DNA of 64,000 nucleotides, from positions 1,790,001 through 1,854,000 of the forward strand of contig NC_015958.1 in assembly GCF_000147695.2 (NCBI RefSeq), read 5' to 3'. A program made the translations under genes and the position numbers. Positions within the stretch are counted from its first letter, which is position 1; every line of letters starts with the position of its first letter. The notes below the pieces were generated by a model, which did no database searches, was not told the DNA's origin, and saw only the letters and a program-made list of their open reading frames with translations. This document shows positions 41,220 to 64,000 of the stretch, in pieces. The stretch is from Thermoanaerobacter wiegelii Rt8.B1 (GTDB taxonomy: Bacteria; Bacillota; Thermoanaerobacteria; Thermoanaerobacterales; Thermoanaerobacteraceae).

Positions 41220-41906
41220 TCATTCTCTTATTAATATCTCACCAAATTTTCCATTCAGTTTTTCTTTTATTTTTTTCAAAAAGTTAATATCACAATCTTG
41301 AATTCCACTTTTTTCCTTATCCAATATACTTTCAGCATACTTGTACCTTTGCAAAGCATATCTTTTTGCAGGAGAAATCCAATCAGCTAAAGCCTCAAAA
41401 TCTTCTAAAGTAAGTAGTTTGTCATTTACAGTAGTTCTAAATTCGTAATCTATATGAGAATTTTTAATTATCTCTACACTTTTTTGAATATTATCTATAT
41501 CTTTTTTATTTTTCAAAAATATGCCATATTTTTCTATTGGAGCTTTTATGTCCATAGCTATATAATCAACAAGCTCTCCTTTTATCAAATCTTCTAAAAC
41601 CTGTGGCCTTGAACCATTAGTGTCTAATTTGACACTGAAATGTAAATCTTTTATATTTTTTATAAAATTTTTTAATCCTCTCCAAAGAGTAGGTTCCCCT
41701 CCTGTGATACATACACCCTCTATGAGGTTTGCTCTTTTTTTAAGATAATTAAAAAAATCTTTTTCACTCCGTATACCTTCTCTTATAGGAATTAGATAAC
41801 TGTTGTGGCAATAAGGACACTTAAAATTGCAGCCACTTATAAAAACAGTGGCTGCAATTTTTCCTGGGAAATCAATAAAAGAAACAGGCATAAAATCGTA
41901 TATCAT
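41220..41906 (-). CDS. nrdG: Anaerobic ribonucleotide reductase activating enzyme
   Basis: A radical SAM protein of 228 residues that places the glycyl radical on NrdD. The cluster motif is in SGCNFKCPYCHNSYLIP (CX3CX2C), with GVCITGGEPTLW after it. Its start overlaps the last four bases of nrdD, so the two are translationally coupled. It is controlled through the cobalamin riboswitch upstream of nrdD. Confidence 0.95.
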   Translation of the reverse strand: MIYDFMPVSFIDFPGKIAATVFISGCNFKCPYCHNSYLIPIREGIRSEKDFFNYLKKRANLIEGVCITGGEPTLWRGLKNFIKNIKDLHFSVKLDTNGSRPQVLEDLIKGELVDYIAMDIKAPIEKYGIFLKNKKDIDNIQKSVEIIKNSHIDYEFRTTVNDKLLTLEDFEALADWISPAKRYALQRYKYAESILDKEKSGIQDCDINFLKKIKEKLNGKFGEILIRE

Positions 41907-43981
41907 ACAACAAATTCCTTTCTGTCCTTGAACTCTTTTTTCTTACCTTCATTCCAATTCTTAACTGGTCTGTAGTAGCCAACAACTCGACTGTAAACTT
42001 CACATTCTTTCCCACAATATGGGCACTCAAAATGTTCTCCTGATATATAACCATGGTCCTCACAAATTGAAAAGGTTGGAGTTATCGTGTAATAGGGAAG
42101 TCTGTAATTATAAGCTATTTTTTTGACTAAAGCCTTACAAGTAGCTACATCGTTTATACTCTCTCCAATGAACCCATGAAATACCGTACCTCCTGTGTAT
42201 TTTGTTTGTAACTCTTCTTGCAAGTCTAAAGCAGTAAATATATCTTCAGTAAAGTCCACAGGAAGCTGGGTGGAATTAGTATAGTAAGGCACATCGCTAC
42301 CAGCAGTTATTATATCTGGGAATAATTCTTTATCTTTTTTAGCTAATCTGTAGGAAGCTCCTTCTGCAGGAGAAGCTTCTAAATTGTACATCATATTTGA
42401 TTCTAATTGATATTGTTCTAATTTGTGCCTCATAAAATCTAATACTTCAAGAGCAAATTTTCTTCCTTCTTCAGTAGCTATGCTTACTCCCATGAAATTT
42501 AATAGCGCTTCATTCATGCCAATAAGTCCTATTGTGTTAAAATGATTTTGCCAGTAATAACCGAATCTTTTCTTTATATCCCTTAAGTAAAATTTCGAAT
42601 AAGGATAAAGTCCCATTTCAGTCATTTTTTCTAACACTTCTCTTTTTATTTCAAGGCTTGTCTTAGCTATATCCATGAGCCTTTCTAACCTTTTGAAAAA
42701 TTCCTCTTTTGATTTTGATAAATACCCAATCCTAGGCATATTTATTGTTACGACACCTATTGAACCCGTCAAAGGATTTGCACCAAAAAGTCCTCCCCCT
42801 CTTTTTCTCAGCTCTCTGTTGTCCAACCTGAGGCGACAGCACATACTGCGAACATCATTTGGATCCAAATCGCTATTTACAAAATTGCTAAAGTAAGGAA
42901 GACCATACTTTGCAGTCATTTCCATTATTTTATCTGCTACAGGGCTATCCCAGTCAAAATTTTTAGTTATATTATAAGTGGGTATTGGAAAAGTGAATAT
43001 CCTGCCGCTGGCATCTCCCTCCATCATGACTTCTGCAAAAGCCATATTTAGCATATCCATTTCTTTTTGAAATTCTTTGTAAGTTTTGTCCATCAATTGA
43101 CCGCCAATTATGACAGGTTCATCTGCCATAATCTCCGGTACCACCAAGTCCATAGTTATGTTTGTAAAAGGGGTTTGAAATCCTACTCTTGTAGGCACAT
43201 TTATATTAAATATAAATTCCTGCAAAGCCTGTTTTACCTCTTTGTAGGAAAGATTATCATAATATATAAAAGGCGCTAAATAAGTATCAAAGTTGGAAAA
43301 AGCCTGAGCTCCTGCTGCTTCCCCTTGAAGTGTATAGAAAAAGTTGACAATCTGCCCAAGAGCAGACCTAAAGTGCTTTGGAGGTTTGCTTTGAACTTTT
43401 CCTTCTACTCCTGTAAATCCAGAAAGCAGTAAATCTCTTAAATCCCATCCACAGCAATATACAGATAAAAGCCCTAAGTCATGAATGTGCAAATCTCCAT
43501 TTACGTGGGCATCTCTAACTTCTGGAGGGTATATTTTATTTAACCAGTAATGGGCCGTTATCGTACTGGAAATATGGTTATTTAAGCCTTGAAGAGAATA
43601 ACTCATATTGCTATTTTCATTTACTCTCCAGTCCTGTTTTCCTATGTATTCATCCACCATTCTTTCAATATCCATAAACATCTTTTTGAATTCTCTTATG
43701 TCTTGATGCTGCTTTCTGTATAAAATATAAGCTTTTGCTGCTTTGGCATGACCATATTTTATCAAATATTGCTCTACAATATCTTGAATCTGTTCTACAG
43801 TGGCTATCCCTTCAAAATGCTTTTCAACATAGTCTGTAACTTCATCAGCTATTTGCACTGCTTGCTCATACTCCCCTTCTCCTACTGCCTTAAAAGCCTT
43901 ATATATAGCATTCGCAATTTTAGACTTATCAAATTCAACTTCATTTCCATTCCTTTTTATAACTTTCATAGCAATTTTCAT
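41903..43981 (-). CDS. nrdD: Anaerobic (class III) ribonucleoside-triphosphate reductase
   Basis: A 692-residue glycyl-radical enzyme that makes dNTPs without oxygen. An N-terminal ATP-cone (MKVIKRNGNEVEFDKSKIANAIYKAF, residues 5-95) gives allosteric control. The catalytic body has MCCRLRLDN and GVVTINMPRIGY, a C-terminal zinc site (CEDHGYISGEHFECPYCGKEC) and the glycyl loop RVVGYYRPVKNW near the end. The first ATG has GGAGG nine bases upstream. A terminator and a cobalamin riboswitch precede the gene: when B12 is plentiful this enzyme is expected to be switched off, which implies a B12-dependent class II reductase elsewhere in the genome. Confidence 0.96.
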   Translation of the reverse strand: MKIAMKVIKRNGNEVEFDKSKIANAIYKAFKAVGEGEYEQAVQIADEVTDYVEKHFEGIATVEQIQDIVEQYLIKYGHAKAAKAYILYRKQHQDIREFKKMFMDIERMVDEYIGKQDWRVNENSNMSYSLQGLNNHISSTITAHYWLNKIYPPEVRDAHVNGDLHIHDLGLLSVYCCGWDLRDLLLSGFTGVEGKVQSKPPKHFRSALGQIVNFFYTLQGEAAGAQAFSNFDTYLAPFIYYDNLSYKEVKQALQEFIFNINVPTRVGFQTPFTNITMDLVVPEIMADEPVIIGGQLMDKTYKEFQKEMDMLNMAFAEVMMEGDASGRIFTFPIPTYNITKNFDWDSPVADKIMEMTAKYGLPYFSNFVNSDLDPNDVRSMCCRLRLDNRELRKRGGGLFGANPLTGSIGVVTINMPRIGYLSKSKEEFFKRLERLMDIAKTSLEIKREVLEKMTEMGLYPYSKFYLRDIKKRFGYYWQNHFNTIGLIGMNEALLNFMGVSIATEEGRKFALEVLDFMRHKLEQYQLESNMMYNLEASPAEGASYRLAKKDKELFPDIITAGSDVPYYTNSTQLPVDFTEDIFTALDLQEELQTKYTGGTVFHGFIGESINDVATCKALVKKIAYNYRLPYYTITPTFSICEDHGYISGEHFECPYCGKECEVYSRVVGYYRPVKNWNEGKKKEFKDRKEFVV

Positions 43982-44019
43982 AGTTTAAAACCTCCATTTT
44001 TTAACAATTCTTTGGTTAA

Positions 44020-44056
44020 TAATTAAACCTCTTAACTCCTACGGCCAGTTAAGAGG
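44020..44056 (-). terminator. Regulatory terminator of the cobalamin riboswitch
   Basis: Perfect arms CCTCTTAACT (44028-44037) and AGTTAAGAGG (44047-44056), followed on the minus strand by TTTAATTA. It lies between the B12 aptamer and nrdD and is probably the switchable off-structure. Confidence 0.75.
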
Positions 44057-44106
44057 TATACAAAGGTACCTCACCTCCTCTATACACCGTAGAGAAGTGG
44101 TAACAA

Positions 44107-44301
44107 ATACAGGCAGGTCTCCTGACTTAGGCTCATCACTCTTTACGCCTTCCCACCCTTCAAACATCGGGGACGGTTCCTTTTGTTTGAACAGGCAGTG
44201 GCATAATGTAAAGAGCTCACCATCACAGTGGCGGGACCGTGCAGGACTTTCACCTGCTTCCCTTTTAACCCAATTTTAGCTTCCAAATTGGGCACCTGTA
44301 T
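44107..44301 (-). promoter_or_regulatory. Cobalamin (B12) riboswitch upstream of nrdDG
   Basis: Minus-strand landmarks of the cobalamin aptamer in order: GAAGCAGGTGAAAGTCCTGC, ACGGTCCCGCCACTGTGAT, the B12 box GCCACTG, and AGTCAGGAGACCTGCC. The closing stem pairs ATACAGG (44107-44113) with CCTGTAT (44295-44301). A variable stem TTCAAACA/TGTTTGAA carries AAGGAACCGTCCCC in its loop, a short motif seen again at 51844. A terminator follows, so binding of B12 probably stops transcription into nrdD. Confidence 0.93.
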
Positions 44302-44361
44302 CTGAGAATATTAATTTTTCTACAAAATATAGTGTATAAAAATATTTATAACTCAATATTT

Positions 44362-44390
44362 AGTATATCATCCCCTTATAAACTTGTCAA
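44362..44390 (-). promoter_or_regulatory. Promoter of the riboswitch-nrdDG transcript
   Basis: Minus strand: consensus -35 TTGACA (44385-44390), 17-base spacer, -10 TATACT (44362-44367). It is placed about 60 bases before the aptamer. Confidence 0.75.
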
Positions 44391-44442
44391 CAATAAATAT
44401 TTTTTTAACATCCTCTGTTGTAAAGTGTAGAAAATACCATAA

Positions 44443-44467
44443 ATGAAAACGGCAGGATTTTCCTGCC
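44443..44467 (-). terminator. Terminator of the Fur-family gene
   Basis: Perfect hairpin GGCAGGA/TCCTGCC with a three-base loop (44451-44467), followed on the minus strand by GTTTTC. It lies about 30 bases after the gene's stop. Confidence 0.75.
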
Positions 44468-44497
44468 TTCTCCTAAAAATTATTAATTTCGCCAATA

Positions 44498-44971
44498 TTA
44501 ATGTTTCTCATTTTTTGGAGTTTTTTTGCATTTACTACATATTCCATAAAAATTTAATTCTCCATAATATACGTCGAAATCATATTTTTTATCTATCATT
44601 TTTATATACTTAATCAAATCAGGACTGTAATATTCGTCTATATTACCACAATATTTGCAAATTAAATGAGCGTGAATCTTTTTCTTGTTAAACATTTTAA
44701 GCTCATAGTACTTTTTGGTTCCTATTATATTTTCTGATAATATTCCTTTGTCTACAAAAATTTTTAAATTCCTATAAAGAGTTGCTACACCATAATGGGA
44801 CCATTCTTTCTTTGCTTCTTGGTAAAGGGTGTCAAAGTCAAAATGTGTATCGGGATTTTTTAAAAACACATTTAGTAAGATTTGTCGCTTTTCAGTTATT
44901 TTTAAACCATTTGCTTTCAAAGCCTTTATTAAAAGAGACATTAAATCATTTTTACTTTTAATATCATTCAT
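44498..44971 (-). CDS. Fur-family metal- or redox-sensing regulator
   Basis: A 157-residue repressor. The winged helix includes LKITEKRQILLNVFLKNPDTHFDFDTLYQEA and HYGVATLYRNLKIFVDKGIL. The dimer domain has HAHLICKYCGNIDEYY with a CxxC, and a second pair in ICSKCKKT, together a structural zinc site. Whether it senses iron, zinc, manganese or peroxide cannot be settled by reading. Its promoter has two CATATG-centred boxes that also occur before the NifX/MinD operon at 63.8 kb, so it probably controls itself and that operon. Ribosome site GGTGATT. Confidence 0.88.
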   Translation of the reverse strand: MNDIKSKNDLMSLLIKALKANGLKITEKRQILLNVFLKNPDTHFDFDTLYQEAKKEWSHYGVATLYRNLKIFVDKGILSENIIGTKKYYELKMFNKKKIHAHLICKYCGNIDEYYSPDLIKYIKMIDKKYDFDVYYGELNFYGICSKCKKTPKNEKH

Positions 44972-44989
44972 AATGAATCACCAAATTTC

Positions 44990-45038
44990 AAACATATGTT
45001 CAATTTAAATATACACCTTTTATTGACATATGTCAATA
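44990..45038 (-). promoter_or_regulatory. Promoter of the Fur-family gene with twin CATATG boxes
   Basis: Box 1 is the perfect 18-base palindrome TATTGACATATGTCAATA (45021-45038). On the minus strand it supplies the -35 box TTGACA (45031-45036). The -10 box TATATT is at 45008-45013, 17 bases away. Box 2, TTGAACATATGTTTGAA (about 44988-45004), lies downstream of the start point. The same layout is present at 63792-63850. Confidence 0.7.
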
Positions 45039-45039
45039 A

Positions 45040-45416
45040 CTATTTGTACATTTTTCTCCACTTATCCCACAATATTTCATCTATTTCCTCCACTAATACC
45101 GGATCAAACTGTGTACCTTTATTGAAAATGATTTCTTCTCTTATCTCTCCCCAATCTAGCGGGCTTCTATAAGGTCTTTTGGAAGCCATGGCATCTATAC
45201 TGTCACAGATAGCAATTATTCTTGCTCCCAAAGGAATAGTTAAACCTTTTAATCCTTCAGGATATCCCTTCCCATCCCAGCGCTCATGATGATAAAGAAC
45301 TATTCTAGCGATTTCTTTAAGTCTACTGGATCTGGTTAGAATATTGTAACCTATCACAGGGTGAGTCTTTATAATCTCAAATTCATGAGGCAATAGTTTA
45401 CCTTTTTTATTTAATA
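45040..45416 (-). pseudogene. HD-GYP gene, 3' part, split by an insertion sequence
   Basis: The C-terminal half of an HD-GYP phosphodiesterase: KLLPHEFEIIKTHPVIGYNIL, LYHHERWDGKGYPEGLKGLTIPLGARI and CDSIDAMASKRPYR. The start is missing. It joins exactly in frame to the 5' part at 47073-47289 if the insertion sequence and one copy of the 13-base target repeat are removed, giving SDQILNKKGKLLPHEF. The element cut the gene in two. Confidence 0.85.
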
Positions 45417-47059
45417 GGGATGTGCAAAATTAATAAAAATAGTCACGACAAAAAACCAAAATATGTATGACATACAATATATAGTAATCAACACTGACAA
45501 TTAAACATAAAGGAAGTGGTAAGGGAAAAGAAAAGACAAAAAGAGGGCTAAAAAAGGGTATAAATATCCTGTAGAAGTCAAATGTTAAAAAATGACATGA
45601 ACTAGATTCAGTAAAAGTTAAGCCGATTGCATCAAAGCAACGAGAGATCTAAACTCATCATATTTGCCCAATTTAATAGCTACAATAGCGACAGTGAGTA
45701 AAGTAATATGGCCAAAAGTATTAAGGTTGCTCACAGAATTAATATTTCTAACATAAGCCTTTTCAAAATCCAGAGCTTTAAAGCTAAATTTATCTTTCTG
45801 ATTCAATTCTCAATCTATAGACAGCTTTAAAATATAGGGAGTCTCTATTAATAGAAGACCTATAATCAGAAGATATAATAGCATACTTAGTACAGCCTCT
45901 ATGCTTTTTGCCATTAAAATATTTAGGATGCTTTATAGGGCAGGCAGAGTCATCTTTAGAATTACAGAACTTGCAAACAAATTTTTGCTTAATAAAACCA
46001 TCAAAATACTGCTTGCCGTCTTTGAGCATTTTAATACCTGCTTCACAAACCATATAACCATCATCAGTCAGTGGGGGACTTTTAGAATTACGCTTGTTAA
46101 GAGGAATAAAACAATGACCATGGAGAGTATCTCTAACAAAATTATAAACTCTCTTAACATCATACCCCTTATCGGCAATAAAATTAACATACTTAAGGTT
46201 AAACCACTTATTAGTCTTTTCAAGTAAAGACAAAGCAACTTCAAAAATCAGGGACATCAGCGGGAGTAGTAGTTTCAGCGATAGGTAATCCAGAGATAGC
46301 ATCAACAATAATATGATTTTTATAGCCCCAATAAAACTTATAACGTTTATTAGAAGAATCATTAGAAGCAGAATAAACGCCTAATTTACAATCCTTATCA
46401 GACTTAGGCTGATTATCTTTAGAGAATTTATTTTTAGAAAAAGACTTAGGGTTATTTAACTTAGTGTTAGCTTTAATAGGGGTAGAGTCCATGGAAATAA
46501 ACTCACCAGAGATAATGCCCATATTTTTGAGGATATTGACTTGATTTTGAAAGATAGAGGTCAAATAATCATGAGAGAACTCATTAATAAAACGGCGGAA
46601 AGTCCAATAAGAAGGAAGAGGTTTAAGGATGTTAAAGCCACAAAGATGAGCAATGATAAGATTATTGCGGAGATAATCTAAAAGGTCAGAAATTGTACCG
46701 AATCTTTCAGCTTTCATAACAATAAAAGCTCTAAACATTGCATGATGAGAATAACCCTTACGGCCAGGACTAGAGGAAGGGAATTCAGGTATTGAAGACA
46801 AGTCTAGATTTTTAAACATAGAAGAATAGAAATCAATTTTAGACAGAGAAGTAAAGAGTTCAGGTATATTTAAAAGTAATTGAAGCTGGTACATGTAGGA
46901 TTTCCCCCTCCTTAAAAAATATTTTCATGCGGTATATATAATAATTCGACAAATGGGAGGGGAAATCCTACATAAAAGATAAAAAATTCAAGAGTGATAG
47001 GGAAAAAATATGTCTGCAAAGTGGCTTAAATGAAGGCTTTTGAATTTTGCACAAGTCTA
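45417..47059 (-). mobile_element. Insertion sequence of about 1.64 kb with 13-base target duplication
   Basis: The ends share GTGCAAAATT in inverted orientation (near 45422 and 47042-47051). The 13 bases TTTTTATTTAATA are present on both sides (45404-45416 and 47060-47072). The element holds one DDE-type transposase gene that is frameshifted, so it is probably no longer active alone. The transposase N terminus has the DUF772-like domain found in IS5/IS1182-type elements. Confidence 0.8.
45618..46894 (-). pseudogene. DDE transposase (IS5/IS1182-like), two frameshifts
   Basis: Three frames in sequence make one transposase. The first (46894 to about 46250) has FPSSSPGRKGYSHHAMFRAFIVMKAERFG and SMDSTPIKANTKLN with a catalytic aspartate. 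It ends at a five-T run near 46245; with one T fewer it reads on as EVALSLLEKTNKWFNLKYVNFIADKGYD, which holds the second catalytic aspartate. The second frame stops after RLRIESER near 45790, and the third continues NQKDKFSFKALDFEKAYVRN to 45618. Two single-base shifts disable it. Confidence 0.8.
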
Positions 47060-47533: not shown

Positions 47534-49579
47534 TCAATTAAGTCCTAAAAGTTTTCCACCTTGATACACAATCACAGCCATAAGCCATCCCAACACAAGG
47601 GTGTATCCAACTGCGAAAGCAGTCCATTTCCAGGAATTTGTTTCTCTTTTAATAGCTCCAATTGTTGCAACACAAGGAATATAAATCAAGGTCATTACCA
47701 TAAAGGCATATGCAGAAAGTGGGGTAAAGTTTTGGCGGATTGCCTCTGTTAGTGCAGCCCCTTCAGCTCCATATACAACCCCAAAAGTTCCAACAACTAC
47801 TTCTTTTGCCAAAATGCCAAATATAAGGGCTGATGCCGCTTCCCACTTTCCAAAACCGGCTGGCTTTAAAATTGGCGCAATCAAAGACCCTATTCGGCCT
47901 ATTAAGCTGTTTTCACTGGCATATTCCACTCCAACAGGTAAATTTGAAAGTACCCATATAAGGATTACAACGCTCACAATTATCGTACCTGCTTTTTTAA
48001 TAAACTCACTTCCTCTTTCCCACATGTGAATAAAAAGCCCTTTTAAAGTAGGAATTCTATATGGAGGCAACTCCATAACAAAATGAGAAGTTTTTCCTTT
48101 AAAAAGGTATTTTTTAAACAATTTTGCTACTATTATTGCAAGAACAATTCCCAATAAATATATAGAAAATACTACCAATCCTTGATTTGCAGTAAAAAAC
48201 GCCCCAGCAAATAACACATAAACAGGAAGCCTAGCAGTACAGGACATTAACGGATTTATCAAAATAGTTATAAGCCTATCTTCTTTGTTTTCTAATGTCC
48301 TTGTAGCCATTATACCTGGCACATTACATCCAAAACCTATAATCATAGGAATAAAAGACTTCCCATGTAAACCAAGTGCATTCATTAATCTGTCCATCAC
48401 ATAAGCTGCACGAGCCATATATCCACTGTCTTCTAAAATAGATATAGCAAAAAACAGTAAAAATATTGGAGGTATAAATACAAGAACTGAACCTATACCA
48501 CCTATAAGCCCATCAGTTATAAAAGAAGCCACTACCTCTGGAACTCCAATATTTGCTAATACAGTATTTGTAACTTCTCCCAACCACCCAAAAAATGTCT
48601 CTATCCAGCCTACTAAAGGATCTCCAATAACAAAGGTAAATTGGAAAACTCCCCACATTGCCAGTAGAAAAATGGGTATCCCTAAATAACGATTTGTAAC
48701 AATTTTATCAATTTTATCCGAAAGGGTATACCTGTCTTCTACTGTATAGTGTTTTCTTACGCATTCTTTTATAATGCCAGATATAAAACCGTATCTTTTG
48801 TCAGCTATAAGAATTTCTGCATCTTCTCCCAATACCTCTTCTAAATACTTTTTGCTCTCTTTTAATTGAGACAAAATATCTTTATAATTTTCTATCTCTT
48901 TTATGATGTTTTCATCATTTTCTAATAATTTTACAGCCAACCAGCGTGCCAAAAATCTTTTTGTTAAATTTTCTTCTTTCTCAATCAATTTTTTTAACTT
49001 ATCAATTTCTTCTTCTATCTCTTTTCCATAATCAACTTTATAAACCTCTTTTTCTTTGCTTTCATAAACTTTCAAAACAGCTTGTAAAAGCTCCTTTATC
49101 CCTACATTCTTTGTCGCAACAGTAGGGATAACAGGTATTTTTAAAAGTTTTGATAGTTTCTCCACATCTATTTGGATGCCTTTAGCTTTTGCCTCGTCAT
49201 ACATGTTTAATGCTAGTACCACATTAGCATTCATTTCTAAAAGCTGCATTGTCAAATACAGATTTCTCTCTAAATTAGTAGCATCAACTACATTTACAAC
49301 CACATCGGGCTTATCGTAAATAATAAAATTGCGAGCTACGACTTCATCTTCTGTATAAGCTCCTAAACTATAGGTACCAGGAAGGTCTACAACATTGATA
49401 TCTACACCCTCAAATTTTAATTTCCCTTCCTTCTTCTCTACTGTAACTCCTGGCCAATTCCCAACATGTTGCCTTGAGCCAGTCAAATCGTTGAATAAAG
49501 TTGTTTTACCTGAATTAGGATTGCCAGCTAAAGCAATTACAAGCTCCCTTCTTCCCTGCAAGGTAGATACCTCTCCCAT
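47534..49579 (-). CDS. feoB: Ferrous iron transporter B
   Basis: A 681-residue Fe(II) transporter. The N-terminal G domain has [34 protein letters not shown] (G1 and G2), DLPGTYSLG (G3) and NMYDE (G4 variant). A helical spacer and the membrane core follow, with the Cys-containing gate [14 protein letters not shown] and [13 protein letters not shown]. Feo systems import ferrous iron in anaerobic conditions. It is preceded by two feoA genes. Ribosome site GGAGG. Confidence 0.97.
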
Positions 49580-59641: not shown

Positions 59642-60106
59642 CTATGAAATCGCTCCTACAGGGCAAATATCAATACATCTGCCACAGTCTCTGCACTTAT
59701 TAGGATCTATATATGCAATTCCATCTTTCAACTCTATAGCATCAAAAGGACATACTCTCACGCAATTACCACACCCAATGCAGACCGATTCATCCACTTT
59801 AGGTTTAAGTGGTTTTGTATATTTTAGGCCACTTTCTTTTTTCTCTTCTGCCACAGGATTATTAGTGTTAGTAGTAGGAAAATTCTGATAAGATACATTA
59901 TAGCCTGCAGCTTTTCTTATCATTGGCCCGCCGCATACAGGGCACCTTAGTGTATAACAAGGTACACCTCTTTGATGAGGAATCTCATGGCCACAGTTTT
60001 CACACACACAGCTACCATCAGGTCCGAAACCTGCTCCTCTTCCAAAGCCACCTCCTCCGCCAAATCCTCCACCTCTACCTCCAAATCCTCTTCCAAAACC
60101 AGGCAT
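59642..60106 (-). CDS. Gly-rich two-ferredoxin protein with zinc-ribbon
   Basis: A 154-residue protein in three parts: a Gly/Phe/Arg-rich N terminus (GFGRGFGGRGGGFGGGGGFG), a rubredoxin-like ribbon (CVCENCGHEIPHQRGVPCYTLRCPVCGGPM), and a C-terminal 2x[4Fe-4S] ferredoxin (CIGCGNCVRVCPFDAIEL and CRDCGRCIDICPVGAI). The ATG at 60106 follows GGGAGG; a longer GTG start is less likely. Last gene of the NifX/MinD operon, so it may pass electrons or clusters for the ATPases. Confidence 0.85.
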   Translation of the reverse strand: MPGFGRGFGGRGGGFGGGGGFGRGAGFGPDGSCVCENCGHEIPHQRGVPCYTLRCPVCGGPMIRKAAGYNVSYQNFPTTNTNNPVAEEKKESGLKYTKPLKPKVDESVCIGCGNCVRVCPFDAIELKDGIAYIDPNKCRDCGRCIDICPVGAIS

Positions 60107-60123
60107 AACAATTGTTCCTCCCT

Positions 60124-60459
60124 TCACAAATATTTTTGTGAATAAAATTTTATAGCCTCTTCCACAGTATCTACATCCTTTACAACTATAGGAGTTTTAT
60201 TCCATTCCTCTTTTATTCTCCTTTGGCTCTCTTTACCCATTGCCTTGCCAATAAAAACTTGACAGTCCTTTAAAACTTCCATTATCTCATCTGTCTCAGC
60301 ATGTTTATGTTTATCTCCCCCATAGGGATTTTCCCTTTCTTCAACTTTTTTGTAGCTATTATTTTCATCTACTTCAAAGATTATAAAATACTTGCTCATG
60401 CCAAAATGCTTATCTGATAAATGCACCTTATCATTAGTTCCAATTGCAACTTTAATCAA
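60124..60459 (-). CDS. NifX/NifB-type Fe-S cofactor-binding protein
   Basis: A 111-residue protein of the dinitrogenase iron-molybdenum cofactor family: IKVAIGTNDKVHLSDKHFGMSKYFIIFEV at the N terminus and VLKDCQVFIGKAMGKESQRRIKE later. Unlike the two other copies in the operon it lacks a His-rich C terminus. The family binds Fe-S or Fe-Mo clusters or their precursors. The start is TTG with GAGGAGG upstream. No nitrogenase genes are seen, so it is unlikely to be for nitrogen fixation. Confidence 0.82.
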   Translation of the reverse strand: MIKVAIGTNDKVHLSDKHFGMSKYFIIFEVDENNSYKKVEERENPYGGDKHKHAETDEIMEVLKDCQVFIGKAMGKESQRRIKEEWNKTPIVVKDVDTVEEAIKFYSQKYL

Positions 60460-60496: not shown

Positions 60497-61315
60497 TTAA
60501 ACAATAATGGAAGAACTCGTAGTTAAATAGGACAGTTTGTCTTTTAGCACTGATTTTAAAATCCCATATTCGTCTATTCCCGTGCAATGACCTGTATATA
60601 TTTTCTTTATTCCATAGCTATCTATTTTTTTGGCTATTTCTATGATTTCTTCTTCTGGCATACCTCTTAAATGAAAACCTCCAATTAATGACTTGAGAGA
60701 ACTTCCTTCAAAACGCCTTTTTGCCGTTCCCAAAATATTTAATATACCTGCATGGGAACATCCCGTAATTACATTAATTCCATCTTCCTCTTTTACTACC
60801 ACAAAAACCTCATCTAAAAAATTATCCTTTATTTTTTCTCCTTTTTCTTCAATTAAAAAATTCTTAGTAGTGAATTCATTGTCATAAACTATGTCAGTGC
60901 TTGTGATCACAAAAAAATCTTTTTCTACTTCTGTATCTTCCTCTATTAGCACAAAATTATTTTTGTATTTATTGTAAATTGCTAAGTTAAAACCTATCTC
61001 ATCTATATTTCCATTTTTCCTCAATGCATATTTTTTATCTAAAATCCGCTTATGAGCATATATTTTTACATTGGGATTCTTTTCAAGCAAACCTTTGAGC
61101 CCACCAATATGGTCATAATGCCCATGGGTGAGAACCACTTTTTGCATTCTTTCTACCTCTATACCCATTAAACCACAATTTTTTATAAAGTTTTCACTCT
61201 GGCCGGTATCCACCAAAACTTCTTTATCATCTTTTTTTACTAAAATTGATAATCCATGTTCTGCTACAAAATTTTTATTAAAAACCACATTTTCTATAAG
61301 CACTTGTATTTCCAA
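60497..61315 (-). CDS. Metallo-beta-lactamase-fold hydrolase
   Basis: A 272-residue metallohydrolase. Metal ligands: LTHGHYDHIGGLKGLL (HxHxDH), VITGCSHAGILNI, and IYTGHCTGIDEYG. The sequence resembles the group including the beta-RFA-P-synthase-like proteins. The reaction is unknown. TTG start with GGGAGGAGAG. Its position in the NifX/MinD operon is conserved in related anaerobes as I recall it; this was not checked. Confidence 0.82.
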   Translation of the reverse strand: MEIQVLIENVVFNKNFVAEHGLSILVKKDDKEVLVDTGQSENFIKNCGLMGIEVERMQKVVLTHGHYDHIGGLKGLLEKNPNVKIYAHKRILDKKYALRKNGNIDEIGFNLAIYNKYKNNFVLIEEDTEVEKDFFVITSTDIVYDNEFTTKNFLIEEKGEKIKDNFLDEVFVVVKEEDGINVITGCSHAGILNILGTAKRRFEGSSLKSLIGGFHLRGMPEEEIIEIAKKIDSYGIKKIYTGHCTGIDEYGILKSVLKDKLSYLTTSSSIIV

Positions 61316-61334: not shown

Positions 61335-61679
61335 TTAATGATGATGTTCGTGTTTTTCACAAGGACTGTTAGAAGATATCAAAGTACCATTGATGTACTT
61401 CTCTGCCACTTCTGTAGCATTTCCTTCAGCGCCAGTTATTACATCTATTCCATAACTATTAAAAAGCTCAATAGCACTAGTCCCCATTCCTCCAGAAATT
61501 ATACAATCAACTCCTTTGTCTTTTAAAAACTCTGGGAGAAATCCTGGTCTATGACCGGGATTAGGTAAAAAAGTAGAGTCTTTTATCTTACCATCCTCCA
61601 CATCAAAAATCCAAAAACCTTCACAATGTCCAAAATGCATTGAAACTTCTTCGCCTTCTGAAGCAACAGCAATTTTCAT
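61335..61679 (-). CDS. NifX-type Fe-S cofactor-binding protein with His-rich tail
   Basis: A 114-residue protein: KIAVASEGEEVSMHFGHCEGFWIFDVEDG and GVDCIISGGMGTSAIELFNSYGIDVITG are the family core. The C terminus CEKHEHHH is a possible metal-binding tail. Its ATG overlaps the stop of the MinD-like gene by four bases, so it is coupled to that gene. Confidence 0.85.
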   Translation of the reverse strand: MKIAVASEGEEVSMHFGHCEGFWIFDVEDGKIKDSTFLPNPGHRPGFLPEFLKDKGVDCIISGGMGTSAIELFNSYGIDVITGAEGNATEVAEKYINGTLISSNSPCEKHEHHH

Positions 61680-62551
61680 TTACTTTCCACCCCTTCATCT
61701 AAAATTTCTTTAATCCTAAGCCACATTTTATAAATTTGCTGGTAAGCAGTGCTGTCAGGATAACTACTTAAGCTTTGTAAATTTTTTAAAGCTTTTACAA
61801 CTGTTTCATCAAAATCTATTTTCCCAACAACCACAATGTTGTTTTCCTCACAATATTTTTCTATTTGTTGTGATACTTCTTTATTTAAATCCCATTTATT
61901 GACACACACCACGGAAGGAATTTTAAAGCTTTCTATCGCTGACAATACTCTCTTCATGTCAGCAAAACCAGAAAGTGTAGGTTCTGTAACAATTAATACC
62001 AAATCTACACCCGTAGCAGAAGCAAGGACAGGACATCCTATTCCTGGAGTTCCATCAATTATCAAATACTCATCGTTGTCATCACTTACTTCCTTCGCCT
62101 TCTTTCTCACCTCTGTCACCAATTTTCCTGAACCATCTGCTCCAGGAAAAAGCTCTGCATACACTACTTTTTCTTCCGACTTTGTCTTGGCATATATTAC
62201 ATGGCCTGTTTTTTCCTCTACCAATTTAATCGCTTCAACAGGGCATTTATACATGCAAAGGCCACAACCTTCACAATAATAAGGATATACCTCAAAATTT
62301 GAAATAGCGTCAAACCTACAAAGTTCTTCGCAAAGTCCACATTCAATACATTTGTCTCTATCTATAACCGCCGTCTCTTTTCCATAAAAGTCTTGTTTTT
62401 CTATTATTTCCCCCTGCAAAACTATATTTAGGTTAGGAGCTTCTACGTCACAATCTGCCATAATCTTATTTTTAACAATGGTGCTCAAAGTAGTGGCAAC
62501 TGTGGTCTTCCCTGTACCACCTTTCCCGCTTAAAATTGCTAACTGCTTCAT
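61676..62551 (-). CDS. MinD/Mrp-type ATPase with ferredoxin insert, second copy
   Basis: A 291-residue P-loop ATPase: Walker A SGKGGTGKTTVATTL at the N terminus, then an inserted ferredoxin domain (CIECGLCEELCRFDAI and CEGCGLCMYKCPVEAI, about residues 65-110), then YLIIDGTPGIGCPVLAS and VLIVTEPTLSGFADMKR. Members couple ATP hydrolysis to Fe-S cluster or metal handling. It overlaps the next gene by four bases and the preceding MinD-like gene by four. Confidence 0.9.
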   Translation of the reverse strand: MKQLAILSGKGGTGKTTVATTLSTIVKNKIMADCDVEAPNLNIVLQGEIIEKQDFYGKETAVIDRDKCIECGLCEELCRFDAISNFEVYPYYCEGCGLCMYKCPVEAIKLVEEKTGHVIYAKTKSEEKVVYAELFPGADGSGKLVTEVRKKAKEVSDDNDEYLIIDGTPGIGCPVLASATGVDLVLIVTEPTLSGFADMKRVLSAIESFKIPSVVCVNKWDLNKEVSQQIEKYCEENNIVVVGKIDFDETVVKALKNLQSLSSYPDSTAYQQIYKMWLRIKEILDEGVESK

Positions 62552-63396
62552 TTTTTTATCAACTCCAATGCATCAGTTGTCAACTTCTCAAATATTTCTT
62601 TTGCCTCTTCATCAACCTCAATCAATAATTTTCCTTTTGAATAGGCCTCTGCAAACTCTTTTTTAAAAGGAATCTTCGCTAAAACTTTTATCCCTTCTTT
62701 TTCGCAGTATTCCTCGATAATATTGTCCCCTTCCCCAGCTTTATTAATGACAGCGGCCATAGGAATGCCCATCTGCTTTACAAGCTGTACAGCTAAATCA
62801 AAGTCGTGCAAACCATAAGGAGTAGGTTCTGTAACCAGAATACACAAATCACTTCCTTCAATAGAATGTATAACTGGGCAAGAAGTCCCGGGAGGGCTAT
62901 CCACTATTACAGGTTTATCTGCATTCTCAATCAATTTATTAATCTCTTTTAAAATAGGCACTCCAGTGGCCTCTCCATAATTTAATTTTCCGTCTATAAA
63001 ATCTATGCTTTGGGCTTTGCCCTTCCTTATCGTACCAATAGGTTTATATTTTTCTACTATGGCATCATAAGGGCACATCTCAAAACAAGCTCCGCAGGAA
63101 TGACATAAATGGTCAAATACAAGAATTTTTTTGATTAATTTTGTCAATGCTCCAAATCTACACGCTTTTACACACTCACCACATAAAGTGCATTTGTCGT
63201 TGTTTATTTCAGGTATTATGACTTCAACAGTTTTGTCCTCTTCTATTTGAGGATTTAAAAACAAATAGCCGTTGGGCTCTTCTACATCGCAATCAACATA
63301 CACGCTATTATTAAAAGTTTTCGCAAGGTTGACAGAAACGGTTGTTTTCCCTGTCCCACCTTTACCGCTCAATACAGAAATTTTGACTCTTCTCAT
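62548..63396 (-). CDS. MinD/Mrp-type ATPase with ferredoxin insert, first copy
   Basis: A 282-residue paralogue of the next gene: SGKGGTGKTTVSVNLAK, the ferredoxin insert (CTLCGECVKACRFGAL and CHSCGACFEMCPYDAI), VIVDSPPGTSCPVIHSI and CILVTEPTPYGLHDF. Both copies keep complete Walker and cluster motifs, so they may form a heterodimer. The ATG at 63396 is preferred to a TTG two codons earlier because GGAG is eight bases before it. Confidence 0.9.
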   Translation of the reverse strand: MRRVKISVLSGKGGTGKTTVSVNLAKTFNNSVYVDCDVEEPNGYLFLNPQIEEDKTVEVIIPEINNDKCTLCGECVKACRFGALTKLIKKILVFDHLCHSCGACFEMCPYDAIVEKYKPIGTIRKGKAQSIDFIDGKLNYGEATGVPILKEINKLIENADKPVIVDSPPGTSCPVIHSIEGSDLCILVTEPTPYGLHDFDLAVQLVKQMGIPMAAVINKAGEGDNIIEEYCEKEGIKVLAKIPFKKEFAEAYSKGKLLIEVDEEAKEIFEKLTTDALELIKK

Positions 63397-63410
63397 CTTC
63401 AATGCTCCTT

Positions 63411-63773
63411 TTAGTGATGATGATGTCCTTGATTTGTCGCTTCTGTTATCTTTTCAAGACTTCCATTTTTAAAAAGCTCTATGTTTGTTTTTACATCTCC
63501 TTCTACTGCTTTATAAACTGGAATTTCTGCTGCTTTAAATACTTCCATAGCGTTTGGTCCTACATTACTTGAGATAAGAACTTGCACGCCTTCATCTATA
63601 AGAGTCTGTGCCGCTTTAGTTCCCGCACCACTGCTTTGGGCTACTGCAGCGTTGTCAATAACTTTATAATCCATCGTCTCACTATCAACTATAATAAAAT
63701 ATTGAGCTCGTCCAAATCTTGAATCCACCTTAGCTTCAAGAGTTTTTCCTTCTGAGGAAATAGCTATTTTCAT
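63411..63773 (-). CDS. NifX-type Fe-S cofactor-binding protein, first gene of operon
   Basis: A 120-residue protein: KIAISSEGKTLEAKVDSRFGRAQYFIIVDSE, GVQVLISSNVGPNAMEVFKAAEIPVYK, and a His-rich end (NQGHHHH). First gene of the seven-gene operon. The ribosome site is GGAGGATGC and the promoter carries twin CATATG boxes shared with the Fur-family gene at 44.5 kb. Confidence 0.87.
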   Translation of the reverse strand: MKIAISSEGKTLEAKVDSRFGRAQYFIIVDSETMDYKVIDNAAVAQSSGAGTKAAQTLIDEGVQVLISSNVGPNAMEVFKAAEIPVYKAVEGDVKTNIELFKNGSLEKITEATNQGHHHH

Positions 63774-63791: not shown

Positions 63792-63850
63792 TTATTGACA
63801 TATGTTACTTACATTAATTAATATATTATTATTTTTGTCATATGTCAATA
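63792..63850 (-). promoter_or_regulatory. Promoter of the NifX/MinD operon with twin CATATG boxes
   Basis: Box 1, TATTGACATATGACA on the minus strand (63836-63850), supplies -35 TTGACA (63843-63848). The -10 TATATT is at 63820-63825, 17 bases away. Box 2, AACATATGTCAAT (63795-63807), lies near the ribosome site. The same order, -35 and -10 sequences are found in front of the Fur-family gene (44990-45038). Confidence 0.7.
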
Positions 63851-64000
63851 AATTTATAAAGCAAGATAGTATCAAGATACTGTAGGATAATTTTTAGTGA
63901 TAGTGACAATCATTTTAGCAAAATTTTCGTAACAATATAAAATATAGTATGTATAAAGTTAACATTTTGCACAGCTTGCTCCGGTGACAGAGCAGGCTAA
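63851..64000. other. Gene-free end of the window
   Basis: Contains a small perfect hairpin AGTATC/GATACT (63868-63881). The last 40 bases have TTTTGCACAGC followed by the stem TTGCTC/GAGCAG and CTAA. TTTTGCA followed by a GC-rich hairpin and CTAA recalls the start of the structured repeats at 36441 and 50550, but the sequence is cut off. No gene is seen. Confidence 0.3.

Follow-up and report, generated by a model that had tools for sequence, protein, structure and literature searches.

The site recognized by regulators of the Fur, Zur and PerR type is a 7-1-7 inverted repeat, and the orange protein (orp) clusters of Desulfovibrio carry genes for proteins of the NifX and MinD types, as does the operon that we describe below. 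In Desulfovibrio vulgaris, the available text of one report places the orp operons under the control of sigma-54, the activator DVU2106 and IHF (PMC3897727). The DeoR operator of Bacillus subtilis reads ATTGAACAAAATTTCAATTACCAATTTACATATGTTCAA, and the available portion of the source gives base contacts in TTGAACA as well as base contacts by R34 and R39 (PMC11229326). In the papers searched, those listed as naming DUF134, UPF0251 or COG1342 among them, we found neither a function nor a target or DNA site described for that protein family; the available portion of one report on adapted rex-deletion strains of Thermoanaerobacterium saccharolyticum lists, among secondary mutations, a UPF0251 gene possibly hit by a transposon, and ascribes no function to it (PMC5886521). 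When the literature was searched with the letters of the box described here, no title among the matches listed concerned a twin-box regulator.

The window that we analysed is a stretch of 64,000 nucleotides, bases 1790001-1854000 of the 2.785-Mb genome of a heat-loving anaerobe; family, class and phylum below are those of this host organism, and genomes and loci carry G and L numbers where they must be told apart. Two promoters in the window, one before a Fur-family gene (fur) and one before an operon of NifX-type and MinD-type genes (NifX/MinD), are laid out on a single plan (Table 1). A sequence-only reading had drawn attention to this plan, and we confirmed it on reading both promoters: a TTGACATATG box that supplies the -35 element, a 17-base spacer, a TATATT -10 element and a second CATATG, whose centre is 34 bp (fur) or 40 bp (NifX/MinD) from that of the first. 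We consider it likely that a DUF134 protein uses this twin box as its operator to repress metal-cluster genes, with fur among its targets.

Table 1. Features of the two twin-box promoters, their genes and the proposed regulator (window positions).
Feature	Position	Strand	Details
DUF134 (UPF0251) protein, 118 aa	37872-38228	minus	proposed regulator; ~7 kb from fur
Fur-family regulator gene (fur), 157 aa	44498-44971	minus	probable target of the twin-box element
fur box 2, CATATG	44993-44998	minus	AACATATGTT; just 3' of the predicted start site
fur -10, TATATT	45013-45008	minus	17-base spacer from the -35
fur -35, TTGACA	45036-45031	minus	supplied by the left half of box 1
fur box 1	45020-45039	minus	perfect 20-bp palindrome TTATTGACATATGTCAATAA; read from the sequence
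Ferredoxin-like protein	59642-60127	minus	domain search
NifX-type protein 3	60124-60459	minus	domain search
Metallo-beta-lactamase fold protein	60497-61315	minus	PF00753; same gene run as NifX/MinD
NifX-type protein 2	61335-61679	minus	PF02579
MinD-type P-loop NTPase 2, ferredoxin insert	61676-62551	minus	domain search
MinD-type P-loop NTPase 1, 4Fe-4S ferredoxin insert	62548-63402	minus	CbiA, ParA, Fer4
NifX-type protein (Nitro_FeMo-Co), operon gene 1	63411-63773	minus	PF02579
NifX/MinD box 2	63792-63804	minus	reads TTATTGACATATG on the plus strand
NifX/MinD -10, TATATT	63825-63820	minus	17-base spacer from the -35
NifX/MinD -35, TTGACA	63848-63843	minus	sequence
NifX/MinD box 1	63835-63851	minus	TTGACATATGACAA; sequence

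The fur product lies above the cut-off for PF01475 (E=1.6e-24; 86.8 bits, cut-off 23.1), and every NCBIfam equivalog that it matched scores far under its own cut-off, so that none of them gives it a subtype; close relatives among named records are found in a Clostridia MAG (90% identity) and in Thermoanaerobacter sp. A7A (85%). The box over its promoter is a palindrome of even length, with no base at its centre, and does not follow the 7-1-7 arrangement, in agreement with the earlier statement that it is not a standard Fur, Zur or PerR sequence. Within the NifX/MinD gene run, NifX-type protein 2 shows similarity to the C-terminal portion of MrpORP (110 bits).

Several features surround the fur promoter. 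The gene is followed by nrdD and nrdG for the anaerobic ribonucleotide reductase (41220-44971, fur included), an order that recurs in G017 and G001. The gene 5' of fur (45040-45393) looks truncated, and beyond it lie the ORFs of a possible insertion element (45790-46894) and then FeoB (47534-49579). A near-copy of the entire fur promoter, with both boxes and the -10 element, is present at position 5444 of L128 (G010:C7:210400-210443); no fur gene is labelled downstream of that copy, and a FeoB-like gene is nearby.

By itself, CATATG occurs in the window at chance level (18 occurrences against 16.5 expected), and we rejected it as a signal; the full box, TTATTGACATATGYYCATAA, is longer and has CATATG as its core. 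The window contains four exact matches to TTGACATATG, all of them within the fur and NifX/MinD promoters. The genome has 12 exact occurrences: these four, two ahead of SLAC1-family transporter genes that are paralogues of each other, one in the interval separating suf from groES-like genes, and five inside ORFs. A genome search for the box had been suggested as a means of listing the regulon; the exact occurrences could be enumerated in this way, but searches that allowed mismatches were too noisy (322 forward matches against 203 in the control for a 14-mer with up to 3 mismatches; 107 and 111 against 82 and 72 for the 13-mer with up to 2), and we therefore claim no full regulon. The consensus of 70 sites outside the class reads TTATTGACATATG, followed mostly by (C/T)(C/T)CATAA, and is biased towards the palindrome, since a site was selected only if it agreed with the palindrome at 15 or more of 20 positions.

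The two SLAC1-family anion transporter genes belong to paralogous clusters at genome positions 361735 and 1558133 (L074, L075), which also encode ArsR, NifX-like and ferredoxin proteins and are both conserved in G002. Each transporter gene is preceded by a promoter of its own, in which one TTGACATATG box, rather than a pair, serves as the -35 element. The box between the groES-like and suf genes (2694247; L073) contains TTATTGACATATG and is kept in G002 and G003; it is weakly palindromic, overlaps an apparent Fur-type sequence, and is a possible member of the twin-box regulon.

The element is conserved in the family at both promoters. A Fur orthologue (48-100% identity) is present in 14 of the 20 family genomes, and all 14 of its promoters carry TTGACATATG, with box 2 as CATATG in 13 and as CATACG in one. 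Among the others, G013 has only a fragment of the orthologue, and G004, G007, G009, G015 and G018 contain no more than distant Fur paralogues. In 17 of the 20 genomes the NifX/MinD operon is represented by its first MinD gene, each time with TTGACATATG as box 1; here box 2 is CATATG in 11, CGTATG in four and degenerate in two (G007 and G001). When the two promoters are pooled, box 2 is kept in one of these three forms in 29 of 31 cases. The sequence-only reading had depended on conservation of the box in relatives, and box 1 was kept in every one of these promoters. A conserved, operator-like element is common to the fur gene and the NifX/MinD operon, which are probably co-regulated.

Across the class, the two-box pattern TTGACATATGN{18,38}RYRTATG was present in 35 of 37 genomes (absent from G007 and G026), against 1 of 37 for the reversed control, so the element exceeds chance. 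In the class genomes inspected outside the family it precedes NifX, DUF5320 and DUF134 genes: the order is site, NifX, DUF134 in G020 and G032, and site, DUF5320, DUF134 in G033 and G034, while two sites flank DUF134, NifX and MinD in G035 and G036. Four sites lie within ~15 kb around fur in G012 and G016; among the products of the genes downstream of them are an NTPase of the NBP35/Mrp type and a substrate-binding protein. A pattern scan of the phylum returned 30 loci, of which 23 were strict (with a full TTATTGACATATG half) and seven loose; DUF134, NifX, MinD or DUF5320 genes adjoin 20 of the 23 strict loci and one of the seven loose ones. The spacing is narrow, in that 19 of 28 CATATG pairs 8-120 bp apart outside the class, taken without a similarity filter, are separated by 34-41 bp. 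Because this range has no fixed helical phase, we do not argue for cooperativity.

The distribution of the element follows that of DUF134. The DUF134 protein of the host has PF02001 as its sole domain (E=2.3e-27; 95.9 bits, cut-off 27). In the host family the DUF134 gene and its proposed targets are in separate operons, and there is no CATATG near the host gene in the window, which has no box of its own. DUF134 was found in 36 of the 37 class genomes, the sole miss (G015) being 89% complete and in ~610 contigs, as well as in 266 of the 398 genomes sampled from the phylum. In its extended form TTATNNNCATATGNNNATAA, searched as an exact pattern with zero mismatches allowed, the box occurs in 69 of the 266 phylum genomes with DUF134 and in four of the 132 without it (Fisher p=1e-9, a value that overstates the certainty since genomes of the same family are not independent); the reversed control gave 6 of 266 and 1 of 132. 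These 73 box-positive genomes span 42 families. The four without a DUF134 match are G120, where the site is loose, and G181, G282 and G318, which are draft assemblies of 90-93% completeness.

CATATG is also enriched before DUF134 genes themselves. In the 200 bp 5' of 81 such genes, which were chosen by HMM score and contig quality rather than at random, CATATG occurs before 21, against 5.2 expected and at most 10 in 200 shuffles, and it ranks first of the 64 palindromic hexamers (z=7.9; next 3.0); the other 60 genes have no CATATG within this distance. CATATG again comes first among the 64 palindromic hexamers when 40 neighbourhoods of DUF134 from outside the class are compared for an excess of intergenic pairs, with six loci against 0.22 expected and at most one in 50 shuffles. 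Three genes encode fusions of DUF134 with a NifX (Nitro_FeMo-Co) domain (L212 6970-7632, L224 6993-7787 and L188 1498-2247). The box begins at most 50 bp from the domain start in L212 and L224, and ~0.9 kb upstream in the third case, in G335. Such a fusion is a natural sensor-plus-DNA-binder arrangement.

An AlphaFold2 model built from an alignment of 58 DUF134 sequences has a helix-turn-helix core (mean pLDDT 84.8) with helices at residues 36-47, 52-58 and 63-83. In that alignment, which contains an SRPT motif, S62 and R63 are nearly invariant and T65 is invariant. A sequence profile of DUF134 aligns with the DNA-binding domain of DeoR over 38 residues (E=1.8e-5, in the region IEAARL...SRPTVSRLL), with SRPTVSR aligned to SRPTFxR. 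By Foldseek and VIA-align, sigma region 4, response regulators and the DeoR domain rank close together for the model; the best Foldseek E-value is 0.034, with none below 0.001, and Z is at most 7.2, with sigma region 4 equally high. Fold comparison does not separate these candidates, and the putative link to DeoR comes from the sequence profile. The five-residue spacing between R34 and R39 of DeoR suggests that they are the two arginines of SRPTVSR, and both positions are also arginine in the DUF134 consensus. The consensus tail of the family bears CxxC and CPxC pairs and is often Cys-rich; the host protein is without the Cys-rich tail and ends in a His-rich stretch.

From these computed patterns we infer how the element may work. 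A DUF134 dimer would grip the palindrome TTATTGACATATGYYCATAA through its DeoR-like helix-turn-helix. A site just downstream of the transcription start is usual for a repressor; with box 1 over the -35 element and box 2 just past the predicted start, occupation of both would exclude RNA polymerase, and DUF134 therefore most likely acts as a repressor. The regulon would comprise the NifX/MinD (orange-protein-like) metal-cluster genes and, within the host family, the Fur-like gene close by; for many relatives, DUF134 itself would be a further member. The signal is likely to be metal or metal-cluster status, since DUF134 is sometimes fused to NifX and often has a Cys-rich tail.

The sequence-only reading had assigned these roles otherwise, proposing that the Fur-family protein binds the boxes and represses both itself and the NifX/MinD operon. 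The shared conserved element, the probable co-regulation and a geometry that fits a repressor all survive from that proposal, but we rejected Fur as the main binder and regard this part of it as improbable. In its favor, the host fur promoter has the perfect palindrome, the element is present at all 14 orthologue promoters, and Fur-like genes near DUF134 elsewhere have a full box (L206 and L207). The element nevertheless persists where the gene does not. A host-type Fur gene is found in only 14 of the 37 class genomes, and the two-box element is kept in 21 that lack it, five in the family (G004, G009, G013, G015 and G018) and 16 outside; G004, G009 and G015 keep both NifX/MinD boxes, and G007 keeps box 1. 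For the 17 class genomes outside the family, 16 of which have the element, the best Fur match reaches at most 85 bits and 39% identity to the host protein, so that only distant paralogues are available. In G002, fur is split over two frames and probably broken, with its boxes intact. Nor do Fur promoters carry the box as a rule: of 23 promoters belonging to the closest homologues from outside the class, one has CATATG and none has the full box, the same CATATG control gives 3 of 44 for Fur paralogues of the class, and no Fur gene adjoins any of the 30 phylum loci. Fur-like genes inside DUF134 loci had CATATG in three of seven cases, two of them with the full box; such genes are recurrent targets rather than carriers of the motif. 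DUF134 fits both the tracking and the Fur-homologue promoter tests better than Fur.

Just as improbable, in our estimation, is that some third regulator travelling with NifX, of the ArsR, SorC/DeoR or another type, binds the box and that DUF134 is a fellow traveller. DUF134 and NifX genes do co-occur, ArsR genes lie within the SLAC1-transporter clusters, in G013 and G018 an ArsR gene is found downstream of one box pair, and a sequence similar to the box, ACATATGTTCAA, is contained in the B. subtilis DeoR operator as given in the available text (PMC11229326). However, ArsR genes are beside none of the 30 phylum box loci, whereas 10 of the 23 strict loci have DUF134 as a neighbour, and genes that consist of a DUF134-NifX fusion carry the box. 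That the palindrome is simply a strong conserved promoter, a -35 element with its flank and no dedicated regulator, we find barely credible. Some conservation is expected from this cause, since TTGACA is the -35 consensus, but box 2 lies 3' of the predicted start, a place in which a promoter requires no element, and it has been conserved within a narrow range of spacings; moreover, the flanks of the box carry the palindrome beyond the -35 element, and the twin box is tied to few gene families.

The reading of the twin box as a DUF134 operator extends, more tentatively, to a general proposal, for which we would put the chances at somewhat short of even: that, throughout the phylum, DUF134 serves as a one-component regulator of the anaerobic metal-cluster genes (NifX/MinD/orange-protein), acting through paired TTATTGACATATGYYCATAA boxes 34-41 bp apart and sensing metal or cluster status through a NifX-type partner or fused domain. 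If this is true, the promoter would learn of cluster status from the cofactor carrier itself. An operator, a target list and an autoregulatory pattern turn DUF134 into a testable repressor family, and the twin box offers a direct route to testing its role, as well as a way into the control of the NifX/MinD genes of metal-cluster biology in anaerobes. If DUF134 controls fur, it would stand higher in the regulatory hierarchy than a metal regulator of a known kind.

Like autoregulated Fur, Zur and PerR genes, the locus has a Fur-family gene with a palindrome over its own promoter; unlike theirs, the palindrome has a CATATG core and an even number of bases and does not follow Fur genes. The orp operons of D. 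vulgaris, as far as the available text describes them, are likewise anaerobe-specific gene clusters, but they use sigma-54, whereas the host promoters resemble the ordinary sigma-A type with a paired operator (PMC3897727). DeoR of B. subtilis, a member of the SorC family, appears from the profile match to be related to DUF134 in its helix-turn-helix, with the same SRPT..R motif; in the portion of the source available, its TTGAACA half-sites resemble the TTGACA/TTGAACA of the twin box, and its operator, in two halves that overlap the promoter, has the similar sequence cited above in its right half (PMC11229326). The twin box differs in consisting of two separate palindromes 34-41 bp apart. The C-terminal, sugar-phosphate effector domain of SorC proteins is absent from DUF134, which has PF02001 only in its 118 residues, and DeoR targets nucleoside genes, whereas the proposed DUF134 targets are metal-cluster genes. 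To the DUF134/UPF0251 family itself, the proposed regulator clearly belongs.
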